The translations under genes and the position numbers were made by a program. From assembly GCA_905233565.1 (NCBI GenBank), contig CAJOCL010000001.1, forward strand, positions 157,101 through 221,100: 64,000 bases of DNA, written 5' to 3'. Source of the stretch: an uncultured Synergistales bacterium. Lineage in GTDB: Bacteria; Synergistota; Synergistia; Synergistales; Aminobacteriaceae. Below, piece by piece: positions 1,198 through 45,257 of this stretch (positions within the stretch are counted from its first letter, which is position 1; each line of letters starts with the position of its first letter). The notes beneath the pieces were generated by a model. The model had not been told where the DNA came from, ran no database searches, and saw only the letters and a list, made by a program, of their open reading frames with translations.

Positions 1198-2556
1198 ATG
1201 AACCTGCCTACTTTTTTAGGGGGAGTACATCCTCCTGAAGGCAAAGCCCTCACGGAAAATAAGGCCATTGAGATTTTACGGCCTGAAGATCCGCGAGAGT
1301 TCGTTTATCCGTTATCCCAGCATATCGGTGCGCCGTGTTCTCCTGTTGTTGCGAAGGGTGATTCTGTACTTGCAGGACAGAAAATCGCTGATACTGACGC
1401 TTTTGTTTCAGCCCCGATATTCTCCGCTGTATCAGGCACAGTCAAAGAGATTGCGCCCAGAATGACCGTTTCGGGAAGTGTCGAAAACTGTATAGTCATT
1501 GAGAGCGACGGGAAATATTCACCGGCTCCCTCGCTTCTTGACGAACTCGGACACAAGCCCCAGCCGTCAGAATATATCAAGCTGATACGTTCAGCCGGCA
1601 TTGTCGGAATGGGCGGAGCATGTTTCCCGACGCACGTAAAACTTTCACCGCCTAAAGACCGCGTTATTAAGTGGCTGATTGTAAACGCTGCTGAATGTGA
1701 ACCGTATTTAAGCTGTGATAACAGGCTCATGATTGAAAGTCCTGACGAAATTATTAGGGGATTGGGCTACGTTCTTGAAATTTTCCCGGAAGCTCAGGGA
1801 GTTATTGCAATTGAAAACAACAAGCCTGAAGCTATAGCGACAATGACGGAGCATAACAAGAATCCCAGAATTAAGATCATGCCTCACAAGGTCAAATATC
1901 CTCAGGGTGCAGAAAAAATGTTAATCTGGTCGGTAACTGGCCAGGAAATTCCGTTAGTTCCTGCATTGCCCGCAGATGTCGGCTGTATCCTGCTGAATAC
2001 CCGTACGGCGTGGCATATCTGCAAGGCTGTTGAAGAGGGAAAGCCCGTAACCGAGCGCGTAATTTCAGTAACCGGCGATGCTGTTGTCGAGCCGAAAAAT
2101 GTTGAAGTTCCTCTGGGTATTCCTGTGCGTGAACTTATAAATTTCTGCGGAGGCTTCAAAGATGAGCCGGTGAAAATCATTGCGGGCGGTCCTATGATGG
2201 GGCTTGCAATGCGTTCGGTTGATGTACCCGTCGTAAAAGGAACTTCGGGAATACTTGCTTTGACCAAGAATTTAGCTTACATGGCTGAAGAGAGCGCGTG
2301 CATAAGGTGCGGAAAATGTATCGAATCATGTCCCATGCACTTAAACCCGACATTCCTTGATCATGCGGTCAGGCGCAGGGATTACGAAACTTTCGAGGCA
2401 TTTAACGGCATGAACTGCATTGAGTGTGGCTGCTGTACGTATAACTGCCCGGCTTCGAGATTCTTAACTCAGACCTGCAAAGAAGGAAAAGCGGCCGTCA
2501 ATGCTGCAAGACGGAAGGCAGCAGCTCAGGCTAAAGCGAAACAGGAGGCGAAATAA
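1198..2556 (+). CDS. rnfC: Electron transport complex subunit RnfC
   Basis: 452 aa; GMGGACFPTHVKL, two CxxCxxCxxxCP ferredoxin motifs; first gene of CDGEAB order. Confidence 0.95.
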   Translation: MNLPTFLGGVHPPEGKALTENKAIEILRPEDPREFVYPLSQHIGAPCSPVVAKGDSVLAGQKIADTDAFVSAPIFSAVSGTVKEIAPRMTVSGSVENCIVIESDGKYSPAPSLLDELGHKPQPSEYIKLIRSAGIVGMGGACFPTHVKLSPPKDRVIKWLIVNAAECEPYLSCDNRLMIESPDEIIRGLGYVLEIFPEAQGVIAIENNKPEAIATMTEHNKNPRIKIMPHKVKYPQGAEKMLIWSVTGQEIPLVPALPADVGCILLNTRTAWHICKAVEEGKPVTERVISVTGDAVVEPKNVEVPLGIPVRELINFCGGFKDEPVKIIAGGPMMGLAMRSVDVPVVKGTSGILALTKNLAYMAEESACIRCGKCIESCPMHLNPTFLDHAVRRRDYETFEAFNGMNCIECGCCTYNCPASRFLTQTCKEGKAAVNAARRKAAAQAKAKQEAK

Positions 2557-11289: not shown

Positions 11290-12762
11290 TTAATAATGCG
11301 GTACAGCCCCAAGAGCGTAAGATATCCGCCTTTCGTATCCGTCTGAAGGGATATTGTATATTTTTCCGTCTATAATAATTTCAGTTGAGCCGCCTCCGTC
11401 AAGATTAAGCGCGTAAATTAAGCCCTGACCGCGCATAATTTCCGTAAGTTCTGAAATTGTCGCTCCTGATGAGTGCATACCGTTCCGACCGTCTACGGCC
11501 ATGAATACCCATGAACCTTCAGCGTTAAGCCCTACGGCGGATCTGGGGTGCCTCGCCGAAATAAGGGAAGTGTTGAAACTTTCCTCATACGCTGCCGGCC
11601 TCCCGTTGTCAATCAACATGGGCCCCGCCTGTATAACGTTGTTCATGTCGGGCCAGTAATTAGCCTCTTCAGTGGCTTCTGCAACGGCAAAAAGGACTTC
11701 ATCGTCATCATTCCATGCCATACAGCCCCTCATGTCAAAAGGCAGAGTGAAATTTCTTCCCCTCACTCTCAGCGCTCCTATAGGGTAGCCCTTTCCGCCC
11801 TTTAATATTCCGAAAAATCCTGCGTTTATTGCAGCCTGTACGTTATTTTGCGAATAAATTGCTGAAAGCGTCCTTAAATCCGTAGGGCCTTCGCTTGCTG
11901 CAATCGGCATTATCCTGAAATAGCTGGGATCTATGACAAGCATTATCCAGAATACCGGGACTATCCGGGTTTTAGGATTTGTCATTGAAGGTATTATTCT
12001 GGTCTTTAACCCCCTTGCCCCTGCAATTGTCTCAAGCCTTCGTATATCGTCATAATTTTCAAGTTTTTGGCTTCTTACGCTGTAGCTTCCGTTCAGTCCT
12101 GCAATGCTGACATCGTAGCCTTCATCTCTCAATGAGGCTTTGAAATAATCGGCTGCAGCTTTGCTTTTTATGCCGTCAGCGTAAAATCTCCATGACGGAA
12201 TCCCGGAAGGCACTCCCTCGCGGTGAATGTGAACTCTTAGCCCCTTAATGGGATTTCTTATTATGTCAAAGCTGAAATTTGATGATGCTCTACCCAGACG
12301 CTGCAATATCGTACGTATTTCATTGAGGCTGATGTTTGTATTGCCGGCGAATTTTTCATTTTTGAAATCCGAGAGAGTGAATATAGCCGGATTCATTCTT
12401 GACGCTATGACAAGACATCCGCGCTCAAAGGGTGTTAAATTTTTTTCGTCCTTAAAGCCTGTCGGGTAATCCGTGAGAAGTCCGGCCTCAAATGTAAGTC
12501 CCAGACTTTCAATGCACCATCTGAGGGCATCGCGCCGTGTTACGGGCGAATCCAGTTTTGTTACCGTGTCCGAAACGTAGCCGGTACGCAGAAGAAAGCC
12601 GGGAGCGTCATTATACGGTGCTTCAGGTGAACTGCTCCAGTCTATTCCGCGAGCAGCAAGAAGACCCGTTAAAAAATCATATTTTGTTGCTGCTCCTGAA
12701 ATCCCCGTACTTAGCAGCAATATCAGTATTGCTATACAGGAACGCTTGAAATTTTTTGACAT
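11290..12762 (-). CDS. Phosphodiester glycosidase (NAGPA-domain) family exported protein
   Basis: AAINAGFFGILKGG...YPIGALRVRGR...RHPRSAVGLNAEG...ALNLDGGGSTEI; start chosen at MSKNFKRSCIAILILLLS signal peptide rather than upstream TTG (12786). Confidence 0.8.
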   Translation of the reverse strand: MSKNFKRSCIAILILLLSTGISGAATKYDFLTGLLAARGIDWSSSPEAPYNDAPGFLLRTGYVSDTVTKLDSPVTRRDALRWCIESLGLTFEAGLLTDYPTGFKDEKNLTPFERGCLVIASRMNPAIFTLSDFKNEKFAGNTNISLNEIRTILQRLGRASSNFSFDIIRNPIKGLRVHIHREGVPSGIPSWRFYADGIKSKAAADYFKASLRDEGYDVSIAGLNGSYSVRSQKLENYDDIRRLETIAGARGLKTRIIPSMTNPKTRIVPVFWIMLVIDPSYFRIMPIAASEGPTDLRTLSAIYSQNNVQAAINAGFFGILKGGKGYPIGALRVRGRNFTLPFDMRGCMAWNDDDEVLFAVAEATEEANYWPDMNNVIQAGPMLIDNGRPAAYEESFNTSLISARHPRSAVGLNAEGSWVFMAVDGRNGMHSSGATISELTEIMRGQGLIYALNLDGGGSTEIIIDGKIYNIPSDGYERRISYALGAVPHY

Positions 12763-12790
12763 TTTAGACTTTAACCTCGCAATCAAAATT

Positions 12791-12808
12791 TATATCAGAC
12801 CTGATATA
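12791..12808. promoter_or_regulatory. Perfect palindrome TATATCAG-AC-CTGATATA overlapping a TATAAT -10 box
   Basis: 8-bp perfect inverted arms; TATAAT at 12805-12810 on + strand. Confidence 0.6.
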
Positions 12809-12817
12809 ATTTAATTC

Positions 12818-12958
12818 AGCCCCTGCGGGTTCTCGTGATACTGATTAAGTTCTGAGCCAACACTCGCTTCTATTCAGGCTTATGCCGCAGACTCAAATGT
12901 CTTTATTAGGGACGGGTCAGAACACTCACTACACGGTTTCTGCGGAGGCATTTTTATT
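12818..12958 (+). ncRNA. Candidate structured orphan small RNA (family unassigned)
   Basis: TATAAT at 12805; long-range closing stem GCCCCTGCGG...CTGCGGAGGC, nested GTTCTGA (12849-12855)/TCAGAAC (12917-12923), followed by TTTTTATTTT. Confidence 0.45.
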
Positions 12959-12975
12959 TTGTAATTATATTCCCT

Positions 12976-15900
12976 TTAACGCCTGAATAAATCTCCCAGT
13001 TCCTCAAGACCTCTCTTTATTCCCTTTTGAACTTCCTCGTTTACTCTGTCTTTAACTTGCTGCCTGATTTGCTGCTGCCTTGTCTGAGTCTGCGTTTGAC
13101 GTGTCTGAGTCTGCGTTTGGGTTTGCGTTTGGGTCTGATTCTGAGGCTGTGCAGGCCGGGTATTTGTCCTTATGTTCAAATTTTTCTTAATGCTGTCAGG
13201 GAGCGCGTCAACTGCCCTGTCGATTATCTTCTCTTCAATTGTTGTTGCCCTGCTCTGACTTGCTGATTTATCACCGCTCTGCTGTGTCTGTGTTTGTGCC
13301 TGAAGAGTTGAAGGGCCGATTTTTAAGCCTGAGAATGAAGGCGATGATGCTTTGCCGGAAATTTTTAGATTAACCGTCCTGAAGTCCCCTGTAGAAGCCG
13401 TCTTGTTAGCTCCGCTCAGTCCTCCGGTAAGAAACGCTTTCAAGCCGTCCTGAAAACTGCTTGTCCCTCCTTTGAACAAAGCCTCAAGACCGCCCATCGT
13501 ACCGCCCTGAATTGCGTTTATAAGCTGGTAATTTATGCTGCTTTCCGTCAAAAAGTTAATGGTTGCGCTGTCCTTGCTGAAGTCAAAAACTCCGTTCTGG
13601 GTTAATTTAGCGTATCTGTACATAGGATCGCCGTTGTTTGCGTTCACGATTGAACCGGCTTTAACCAAAAGTTTACCCGTCTGAAGCGTCAGAGGGGCAT
13701 TGACACTGGCGTATCTTATTCCGTTTGTCTTGTGTATTCTTGCAAGAATGTCAAGCCACTTGAAACCCGTTATGGCTCCCGATCCCATAGAAAAATTCCC
13801 GGAGCCTGAATATTTAACGCCGTTATTGACATCTCCGTTTACTTTGAAAGTAAGTTTGCCCCTTCCCGTAATCTTCCCTTCAAGCCCTCCTGAAGCATCC
13901 TGAATTAATCCGTTCACGTCAACCCCCGAAGCGTTTATCTCATCAGTAAATTTCATATTTTTCAGGTTGAATGATAACGTATTTTTCAAAGTTCCGCCGT
14001 AAAGTTTGGCAGTTCCGCCCTTTGACGAAAAATTATTCCCTGTGTATGACAGAGGCAGATTTATGCTTGAAAGTTTCAGCCCGAACGCGCTCAATGAAGG
14101 TGCTGTTATTGAGCCTTTTCCCGTCATGCTGTTTTCATTTCCCGTTAATGTGAAAGCCAGCCCGGCAGTGCCTGAAATTTTCCCGTTCATGGCCGGGTAT
14201 CCGCGCAGTAAATTTTCAAGTTTTATATTATTGCCGTTTAATGAAATATTAATCTTCATTGACGGCGTAATCTGAATTTTACCTGTTGCTTTGACTTCAG
14301 CCCCTTCAACTTCAGCATGTACATTTTTCAGTGAAATGTTATCCGTGTTGCCTGAAAGTTCAGCAATTATATTTTTGAGCAGAAATCCCATTGCGTTTAA
14401 TTCCGGTACATTAGCACTAAGATTTACTGAAGGTTTTGAATTTGAGCCTGCAATTTTCAAAGTTCCTGAAACGCTGCCTTTCAAGTCAACGCCTGATGAT
14501 GCCGAGAGCGAGGCAATATCTAAATTGCTGAATCTGAAATTAAAATCAAGCGGCGATTTTCCTGAAACTGACGCAGTACCCGATCCCGTTATATTACCTG
14601 AACCGCTGCGGGCGTTGAAGCCTCCTAATATCAATTTATCGCCGTTTTTGCTCAAAACTGCATTGACGCTTGAGAATGTTACGCCGCCTGCAATTATTGA
14701 TTTTGCAGAGGCAGTTATGCTTATCTTCTCAAGTTTTGCTAAATCCCCGTTTAACGCCGTTGTCAGTTCTATATCTTTGGCCGTAACCATATTCATGGCC
14801 TGAAGGTTGGGAGATGACGCGAGGAAATTGACGGACGGATTATTGACGCTGCCCTGAACTTTCAAACCTGCATTTACAGTCCCTTTTAATTCGTATTGAT
14901 CTATATCGGGGACATAATTTTTAAGGGATGCAGGGGACATTGTTATTGTAGCGTTAATATTCAGATTCGGATTTGAAGAAGGAAGAGGGCCTATCGTTCC
15001 GCTTAAATTAACGGGCATTCCGTTTAATGTCCCTTCAGTTTTTATGAGGGTTAAATTTTTGTCGGCAAACTTGAAATTTATAACCGGCTTTGTTATTTTC
15101 TGACCCCAGCCGGAAAACTCAGGACTGTTAATCGAGCCTGTTATATTCGGGCTTGACGCTGTGCCTTTAAGGGTTATTGAAGCCGTTATCTTCCCTGAAA
15201 GTTTGTACTGCGGTGCATCGGGAATCATGCTTTCAACGCGTTTAATATCAAGATTTGCTAATTTCGCCGTCAAATTCATGACAGGTTTTGTCAGCACTGA
15301 AGCTATACTCCCGTTAAGATAGCCTGATGCGCCCTCAAAATTAAATTTCCCGTCAACATGAGCCGTATCGCTTTTAGCAAGTTTCATTTGTGCCTTTATG
15401 TTCGTGAGTGCCCTGCCGTCATAAGAAATTCTGGGGGCAGTGAAATTAACAAGACCGCTTAACGAATTTACGGGGCCGCTGACGTTTGCGCTGAAAAGTG
15501 AAATTTTGCCTTTCAATGCTTTAAGTTCAGGGATGTTAAGTATTTTGTCCAAGCCGTCTAAACGTGCCTCCCTTCCGTCAAGTTTTATCATTACTGAAGC
15601 GGGTTGATTCGGCCTTGCTGCGAGCGCGATTTCGCCCTGAACGGGTATATTGAGGGCGTTTGCCTGAAAGTTGCTCAGTGATACTCTGTAATCAGAATAA
15701 TTTATATTTGTGCTTAACCTTTCGACTGGGAAGCCGTAAATTTTTTTGCCTTTATAATCAACGGTGCCTGAAACTTTCGGGTTATCAGTATTGCCGGTTA
15801 TGTCAGCCGTGAAATTTGCCGATCCGCTGAAATCCTGAGCCTTCAATAATGACGGGTAAAGAGCAGTAATCTCTTTGATGTCAAGATTTTCTGCTGACGT

Positions 15901-16638
15901 GTGAATATCAAGTTTTCCGCCGATTAATCCACCTGTTGCCAGAATTTTGCATGTTCCGAGAGTAAGTTCGGCTATGTTCGCAGCCGTTAAGCCTGCCGAT
16001 TCTCCCATGTCAATTCTGCCTTTTAACGGGAGGCCGTTTAATGATGCGTCTATGTCGATATCAAATGCCGGAATTTCCGCGCCTATTTCATTTACTTCAA
16101 TTACTCCGAATTTAGATGTAAATCTGCTGTCCTGCAGAGTAAATCTGTCAACGGGAATATCGGGCATTGAATTATTATCATCAGCAAAAGCTGTTGAAAC
16201 GAAAATATTTTGTGACGGCTGTGAGGAAAACTTTATATTTCCAAGATTATTTACTGTCTCCGCGAGCCTGTCAATATCCATGCTTATACCGCCCAATGAA
16301 ATTTCGGAGAGCCTTAATTTTCCTGCTAGTAATGCAGAAAAGTTTATACGTCCCGTAAGAAATCCTGCTGAAAATATTTCATGACCGTTGCGCCCGTCAG
16401 TTATACCGAAATTATGGAGTGTATAGCCTTTTATCGGGTTGCCCGTTATTTTTTCAGCTCTCAGGTCAAGTTTGTAATTCTCAGTGAGATAATTTTTTGC
16501 TAGATTTAATGTGATATTTCCGCCTATATCCGCGAATGAAAGAAGCACCCCTGAAATTATCAGCACGAAAAACATCACAAGAAAAAATTTCAGAATGCCG
16601 CCGCTGTGTCTTTGTCTGCGCCTAATTCTTCTTGACAT
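12976..16638 (-). CDS. AsmA/TamB-like large envelope protein
   Basis: 1220 aa, N-terminal TM then repeated beta-rich AsmA/TamB-type segments (GSVNNPSVNFLASSPNLQA, GTASSPNITGSINSPEFSG). Confidence 0.75.
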   Translation of the reverse strand: MSRRIRRRQRHSGGILKFFLVMFFVLIISGVLLSFADIGGNITLNLAKNYLTENYKLDLRAEKITGNPIKGYTLHNFGITDGRNGHEIFSAGFLTGRINFSALLAGKLRLSEISLGGISMDIDRLAETVNNLGNIKFSSQPSQNIFVSTAFADDNNSMPDIPVDRFTLQDSRFTSKFGVIEVNEIGAEIPAFDIDIDASLNGLPLKGRIDMGESAGLTAANIAELTLGTCKILATGGLIGGKLDIHTSAENLDIKEITALYPSLLKAQDFSGSANFTADITGNTDNPKVSGTVDYKGKKIYGFPVERLSTNINYSDYRVSLSNFQANALNIPVQGEIALAARPNQPASVMIKLDGREARLDGLDKILNIPELKALKGKISLFSANVSGPVNSLSGLVNFTAPRISYDGRALTNIKAQMKLAKSDTAHVDGKFNFEGASGYLNGSIASVLTKPVMNLTAKLANLDIKRVESMIPDAPQYKLSGKITASITLKGTASSPNITGSINSPEFSGWGQKITKPVINFKFADKNLTLIKTEGTLNGMPVNLSGTIGPLPSSNPNLNINATITMSPASLKNYVPDIDQYELKGTVNAGLKVQGSVNNPSVNFLASSPNLQAMNMVTAKDIELTTALNGDLAKLEKISITASAKSIIAGGVTFSSVNAVLSKNGDKLILGGFNARSGSGNITGSGTASVSGKSPLDFNFRFSNLDIASLSASSGVDLKGSVSGTLKIAGSNSKPSVNLSANVPELNAMGFLLKNIIAELSGNTDNISLKNVHAEVEGAEVKATGKIQITPSMKINISLNGNNIKLENLLRGYPAMNGKISGTAGLAFTLTGNENSMTGKGSITAPSLSAFGLKLSSINLPLSYTGNNFSSKGGTAKLYGGTLKNTLSFNLKNMKFTDEINASGVDVNGLIQDASGGLEGKITGRGKLTFKVNGDVNNGVKYSGSGNFSMGSGAITGFKWLDILARIHKTNGIRYASVNAPLTLQTGKLLVKAGSIVNANNGDPMYRYAKLTQNGVFDFSKDSATINFLTESSINYQLINAIQGGTMGGLEALFKGGTSSFQDGLKAFLTGGLSGANKTASTGDFRTVNLKISGKASSPSFSGLKIGPSTLQAQTQTQQSGDKSASQSRATTIEEKIIDRAVDALPDSIKKNLNIRTNTRPAQPQNQTQTQTQTQTQTRQTQTQTRQQQIRQQVKDRVNEEVQKGIKRGLEELGDLFRR
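13070..13150 (-). repeat. Low-complexity Gln/Thr dipeptide-coding repeat (QTQTQTQT) within TamB-like gene
   Basis: Repeated gtctgagtctgcgtttg / gggtttgcgtttg units; protein NQTQTQTQTQTQTRQTQTQTRQQQ. Confidence 0.8.
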
Positions 16639-45111: not shown

Positions 45112-45228
45112 CTCTCTCATCACTCAGCTTTGACTTGCTGCCGGTATTGGCACCTGTTCTCTGAAAAAATCCAGATTTGACAGGTTGCCGGGCTTCATGG
45201 GGCCGGTCCCTCCGCCTCTCTCGATAAG
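45112..45228 (-). ncRNA. SAM-I (S-box) riboswitch upstream of metK
   Basis: Minus strand CTTATCGAGAGAGGCGGAGGGACCGGCCCCATGAAGCCCGGCAACC...GGTGCCAATACCGGCAGCA...GATGAGAG, near-consensus S-box. Confidence 0.95.
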
Positions 45229-45257
45229 AGTTATATTATTTTTTACGGTCTAATATT

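Follow-up and report, generated by a model that had tools for sequence, protein, structure and literature searches.

The element at 12802–12960 on the plus strand of the window (the whole stretch of 64,000 nucleotides that was analysed, from an uncultured Synergistales bacterium) is very probably the bacterium's single 6S (SsrS) RNA, in a clade-specific form with a short arm. The identification as a 6S RNA, taken alone, is near certain to judge from sequence comparison. What appears to be new here is a naturally arm-reduced variant of a known RNA. The ends at 12818 and 12958 are predicted, the start being placed about 7 nt past the −10 and the end inside the U-tail; the predicted length of the window copy is about 140 nt. 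The features are as follows.

11290–12786, minus strand: NAGPA-domain open reading frame, listed start TTG at 12786
12802–12960, plus strand: structured RNA locus: extended −10 promoter, then nested helices closed into a rod, then a U-rich tail
12802–12810, plus strand: extended −10 promoter TGATATAAT, without a −35 consensus; TGNTATAAT in 37 of 37 related loci
12818–12958, plus strand: very probable 6S RNA, short-arm form; same-strand orthologues match RF00013, and model R1 retrieves the 6S RNAs of the order
12819–12844, plus strand: closing stem, 5′ strand (GCC.CTGCGGG, CGTG, TA.TGA)
12849–12858, plus strand: helix P2, 5′ strand GTTCTGAGCC, invariant in the clade
12849–12861, plus strand: proposed template of the product RNA (pRNA), 5′-GUUGGCUCAGAAC-3′, starting opposite C12861; placed by position relative to known 6S RNAs and invariant in all short forms
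12859–12876, plus strand: central bubble, 5′ strand, starting with the clade-invariant AACACTCG; in orthologues it aligns with the bubble of the Rfam 6S model
12862–12866, plus strand: possible collapse helix, 5′ strand ACTCG, with partner CGGGT at 12913–12917
12877–12886, plus strand: mini-hairpin GGC-TTAT-GCC, paired in 97% of cells and changed on both sides in one pair
12889–12902, plus strand: hairpin AGAC-TCAAAT-GTCT, 96% of cells paired
12899–12913, plus strand: alternative 3′-bubble hairpin GTCTT-TATTA-GGGAC, 96% of cells paired
12914–12923, plus strand: helix P2, 3′ strand GGGTCAGAAC, invariant in the clade
12926–12949, plus strand: closing stem, 3′ strand, on the same covariation basis as its 5′ strand
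12950–12960, plus strand: U-rich tail ATTTTTATTTT, recognised by sequence; U/A-rich in most orthologues, with weak conservation
12976–16638, minus strand: gene of a DUF748 protein

Homology to 6S RNA was found in both directions. Direct scans of the window copy revealed no Rfam match even at E 10, and the orthologues of G061, G033, G014, G005, G026 and G027 match RF00013 over model positions 1–187, on the corresponding strand, with 37–44 bits. A search with the Rfam models, proposed as a check in the original prediction, is therefore negative for the window copy and positive, below the cut-off, for its short-form orthologues. No short form attains the RF00013 gathering score of 46.4, which is a curated detection threshold rather than a property of the biology; the gap is bridged by the orthologues. 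In their Rfam alignment the outer helix corresponds to the 6S closing stem, GUUCUGAGCC/GGGUCAGAAC to the inner closing helix, and the next segment to the central bubble. In the other direction, R1, a covariance model built solely from the short RNAs, retrieves all 11 loci of the order previously found by the Rfam 6S model, with E from 8e-12 to 4e-5. It matches 134 of 183 genomes of the order, once per genome except for G018 with two matches, and 42 of the 43 genomes of the genus. No other 6S candidate was found in the genome of the window. The reciprocal matches, together with the order-wide covariation of P2, identify the element as 6S RNA. The loose likeness to 6S mentioned in the original prediction has thus been borne out, and its description of the RNA as an orphan of unassigned family has not. 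The short length and branched terminal arm on which that reservation was based are a derived state of the clade; the ordinary form is found in long-armed relatives within the genus and the family. The length of 6S RNA is about 160–200 nt (PMC8414754), as against about 140 nt predicted here and matches of 119–148 nt in the clade. It is because most of one arm is lost that the RNA is missed by the standard RNA library (Rfam). In 43 of 43 genus genomes searched, the 6S RNA lies below the Rfam cut-off and is therefore missing from annotations that rely on it. The sole gathering-level Rfam match in the window is a SAM riboswitch (RF00162) at 45114–45230 on the minus strand, with 81.6 bits.

When 36 genomes of the genus were searched at the nucleotide level, nearly all contained the element; outside the genus there was no convincing match. 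In 33 aligned orthologues, 98.6% of the pair cells are standard, and six pairs show two-sided changes, in 24 cells; at most one of 500 shuffles attains any of the five measures, and slid structures come nowhere near. Within the clade these changes are located in the closing stem and the GGC/GCC mini-hairpin. The closing stem, which joins the 5′ and 3′ ends, comprises 20 pairs, with 98% of cells paired and five pairs changed on both sides. The GUUCUGA.CC/GG.UCAGAAC helix is invariant throughout the clade; across the order P2 also occurs as GUCUUGA/UCAAGAC, GCCUUGA/UCAAGGC, GUUUUGA/UCAAAAC and GUCCUGA/UCAGGAC; every cell is paired (100%), and three pairs show two-sided changes. Covariation among homologues, another check that had been proposed, is hence seen in the closing stem within the genus and in P2 across the order. 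Conservation of this kind, accompanied by covariation, puts the element beyond chance. No covariation is seen inside the clade for the collapse helix or the hairpins at 12889–12902 and 12899–12913, where it is uninformative because the columns hardly vary. These two hairpins are mutually exclusive, and the second is picked in the best fold of two orthologous loci (L003 and L026).

The pairings described in the original prediction are all in place and conserved with covariation: GCCCCTGCGG at 12819–12828 with CTGCGGAGGC at 12940–12949, with a single C.A mismatch, CGTG at 12834–12837 with CACG at 12932–12935, and GTTCTGA at 12849–12855 with TCAGAAC at 12917–12923. Its two small hairpins, GGC-TTAT-GCC and AGAC-TCAAAT-GTCT, are likewise present. 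The TATAAT noted at 12805–12810 turned out to be part of the extended −10, and the U-tail after the rod was found as TTTTTATTTT at 12951–12960. The reading as a structured RNA that stands by itself, with a promoter of its own and a U-tail, is supported.

The short form shares with 6S/SsrS RNA (RF00013), including the long form of the order, a closing stem with the CTGCGG and CACGG blocks, a P2 with TGAGCC/GGGTCA, the central bubble and the presence in single copy; in the genus, the upstream promoter of extended −10 type is shared with the long form as well. It differs in its sub-cut-off Rfam score and in its apical part. The distance from UGAGCCAACACUC to GGGUCA is 45–50 nt in the ordinary short form, 36 nt in G024 and 21 nt in G036, the last two being separate species, whereas it is about 87–101 nt in the long forms read, including those of the same-genus genomes G018 and G064. 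A form of about 119–148 nt is carried by 40 of the 42 matched genus genomes, and the rest of the order mostly has 175–197 nt. Model matches in the genus measure 142–148 nt in 38 genomes, 133 nt in G024, 119 nt in G036 and 181–184 nt in G018 and G064; in one other family of the order some members have matches of 139–172 nt. The apical arm is cut to one or two hairpins of 3–4 bp, and in G036 it is not a separate arm. The GGC-TTAT-GCC mini-hairpin can be read as the remnant of this arm.

In an rpoB tree the sampled short-form genomes form one clade (100/100), with G018 and G064 outside; G024 and G036 form a sub-clade (100/98), with G036 represented by only 17% of the columns. The short-spacing pattern was scanned for in 84,980 species genomes of bacteria and archaea. 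All 35 loci obtained are in uncultured Synergistaceae or Synergistales, and the titles of nearly all of them name goat, deer, reindeer or sheep samples. The reduction maps to one clade of mainly ruminant-gut Synergistaceae. Since the long-form relatives in the same genus have the arm, its loss here is derived within the RNA family, hence the term variant. Read most simply, the apical arm was mostly lost once and then reduced further. The extra-short form, with 21 nt between the conserved blocks (L043 of G036, 1503–1622, minus strand), is known from one 79% complete MAG, and G024 is an intermediate. On folding, its bubble and apical part give a simple hairpin, in competition with an open bubble. 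The two near-identical long-form copies of G018 (L044 and L045) lie on different contigs of one MAG with 5% contamination and may represent either a real duplication or a strain mixture. In another family (f3), L135 of G120 and L048 of G038 are moderately shortened, with an Rfam match of 152 nt in both and an apical part of 66 nt in L135; this is perhaps an independent reduction.

It is established that 6S RNA, as a mimic of an open promoter, blocks the housekeeping holoenzyme until the polymerase copies a short pRNA from it and sets it free (PMC8876501). A collapse helix, in which the 5′ bubble pairs with the 3′ strand of P2, is believed to assist this release in the 6S RNAs of B. subtilis and Aquifex (PMC8876501). 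From this biology we infer polymerase binding and pRNA templating by the RNA of the clade. Transcribed from its own promoter, it would mimic an open promoter and occupy the housekeeping holoenzyme as growth slows. The polymerase would then copy a short product RNA, predicted to begin with GUUGGCUC, from C12861 back through P2, and the RNA would be released. The freed CGGGU (12913–12917) could pair with ACUCG (12862–12866), like the B. subtilis and Aquifex collapse helix. In foldings with a masked pRNA template, ACUCG/CGGGU forms in seven of the nine ordinary short forms folded, often extended by a second helix, and in both extra-short forms. Its five pairs are clade-invariant, and each is kept in 25–31 of 31 order sequences; L135 has two changes in these segments with the helix intact. 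The folding and conservation support a release of the B. subtilis type, with no claim to proof.

The apical arm of E. coli 6S RNA carries a '−35-like' sigma contact (PMC8876501). Because this arm is nearly gone here, the bubble and the closing stem would be expected to carry the binding, which may be less tight or easier to undo. Apical truncation of E. coli 6S is reported to abolish detectable binding (PMC8876501), so function is not to be taken for granted. Artificial arm-less 78-nt variants of B. subtilis 6S-1 still go through the whole cycle in vitro, at an affinity reduced about 10-fold (PMC8876501). The short form resembles this 6S78 in having a bubble with short flanking helices, a possible collapse helix and a possible small 3′-bubble hairpin; unlike 6S78, in which both arms were shortened artificially, it keeps the closing stem at full length, only the apical arm having been reduced, by evolution. 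We tentatively propose, with the odds rather against it, that a natural 6S RNA without the sigma-contacting apical arm functions through its bubble and closing stem, with an altered mode of polymerase binding, down to the near-armless RNA of G036 (119 nt).

It is unlikely that the RNA is a 6S descendant which now acts differently, with core polymerase (the partner of Ms1) or the holoenzyme of another sigma factor as its target, and perhaps without templating pRNA. The loss of most of the arm that makes the sigma contact in E. coli, almost complete in G036, would fit such a change. However, the pRNA template and its surroundings are clade-invariant, more than expected were templating lost, and RNAs of the B. 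subtilis type tolerate arm loss in vitro. Ms1 of actinobacteria resembles 6S in structure and associates with RNA polymerase, as is proposed for the present RNA, but it binds the core enzyme (PMC9130861), whereas the direct sequence homology of the present RNA is to 6S. The 6S-Flavo RNA (RF01685; PMC2864571) is likewise a lineage-specific 6S-like variant not picked up by the ordinary 6S model; it belongs, however, to Bacteroidetes, and its model gave no match to the present RNA at E 10. A search of a library of papers found none treating 6S RNA in Synergistetes or rumen Synergistaceae, and we make no claim that a shorter 6S RNA has never been described.

The two flanking genes, NAGPA-domain and DUF748, both lie on the minus strand, in agreement with the original prediction. 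For the NAGPA frame, an ATG at 12762 behind a conserved, Shine-Dalgarno-like GCGAGGT block is the more likely start than the listed TTG. The NAGPA gene is a divergently arranged neighbour at every short-form locus tested, and the copies of G018 and G064 are without it; among the locus of the window and L002–L043, with 1.5 kb inspected, the downstream DUF748 gene is matched solely at the locus of the window. This constant neighbour might suggest another trans- or cis-acting RNA, for example a regulator of the NAGPA gene, that merely resembles 6S. We regard that as very improbable in view of the reciprocal 6S homology, the divergent, non-overlapping arrangement of the genes and a genome without any other 6S. 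The mean column identity of the promoter in the related loci is 0.95; it falls to 0.66 immediately upstream and to 0.63 in the spacer. A simple consensus scan of the locus found neither a −35/−10 pair nor a classical terminator, since the extended −10 has no −35 to go with it, and what precedes the U-tail is a long-range stem, not a short hairpin. A perfect 9-bp inverted repeat, TTATATCAG-AC-CTGATATAA at 12790–12809, overlaps the −10; it was not seen in the aligned relatives and is therefore probably due to chance or specific to this genome.

The folding energy of the window copy (z −2.66, with one of 200 shuffles as stable) is moderately unusual, 69 of 2130 equal-length stretches of the window folding as well, so the case could not be made on energy alone. 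That the fold arose by chance between two genes and yields no RNA, for which this place in just the best ~3% might speak, is already contradicted by the R1 matches across the genus, the covariation and the conserved promoter, and is hardly credible. The reverse strand folds almost as well as the plus strand, but was rejected as the RNA strand: its model match is 20 bits vs. 136, and the Rfam matches of the orthologues lie on the strand corresponding to the plus strand of the window.

For the 6S RNA proposed here, the arm loss bears on the mechanistic question of which parts a 6S RNA needs, apical truncation leaving no detectable binding in E. coli and being tolerated by B. subtilis 6S-1 in vitro (PMC8876501). 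A clade with natural arm loss and long-armed relatives in the same genus would offer matched natural RNAs for testing the requirement for the arm. The RNA of this clade may bind more weakly, or its polymerase may have adapted.
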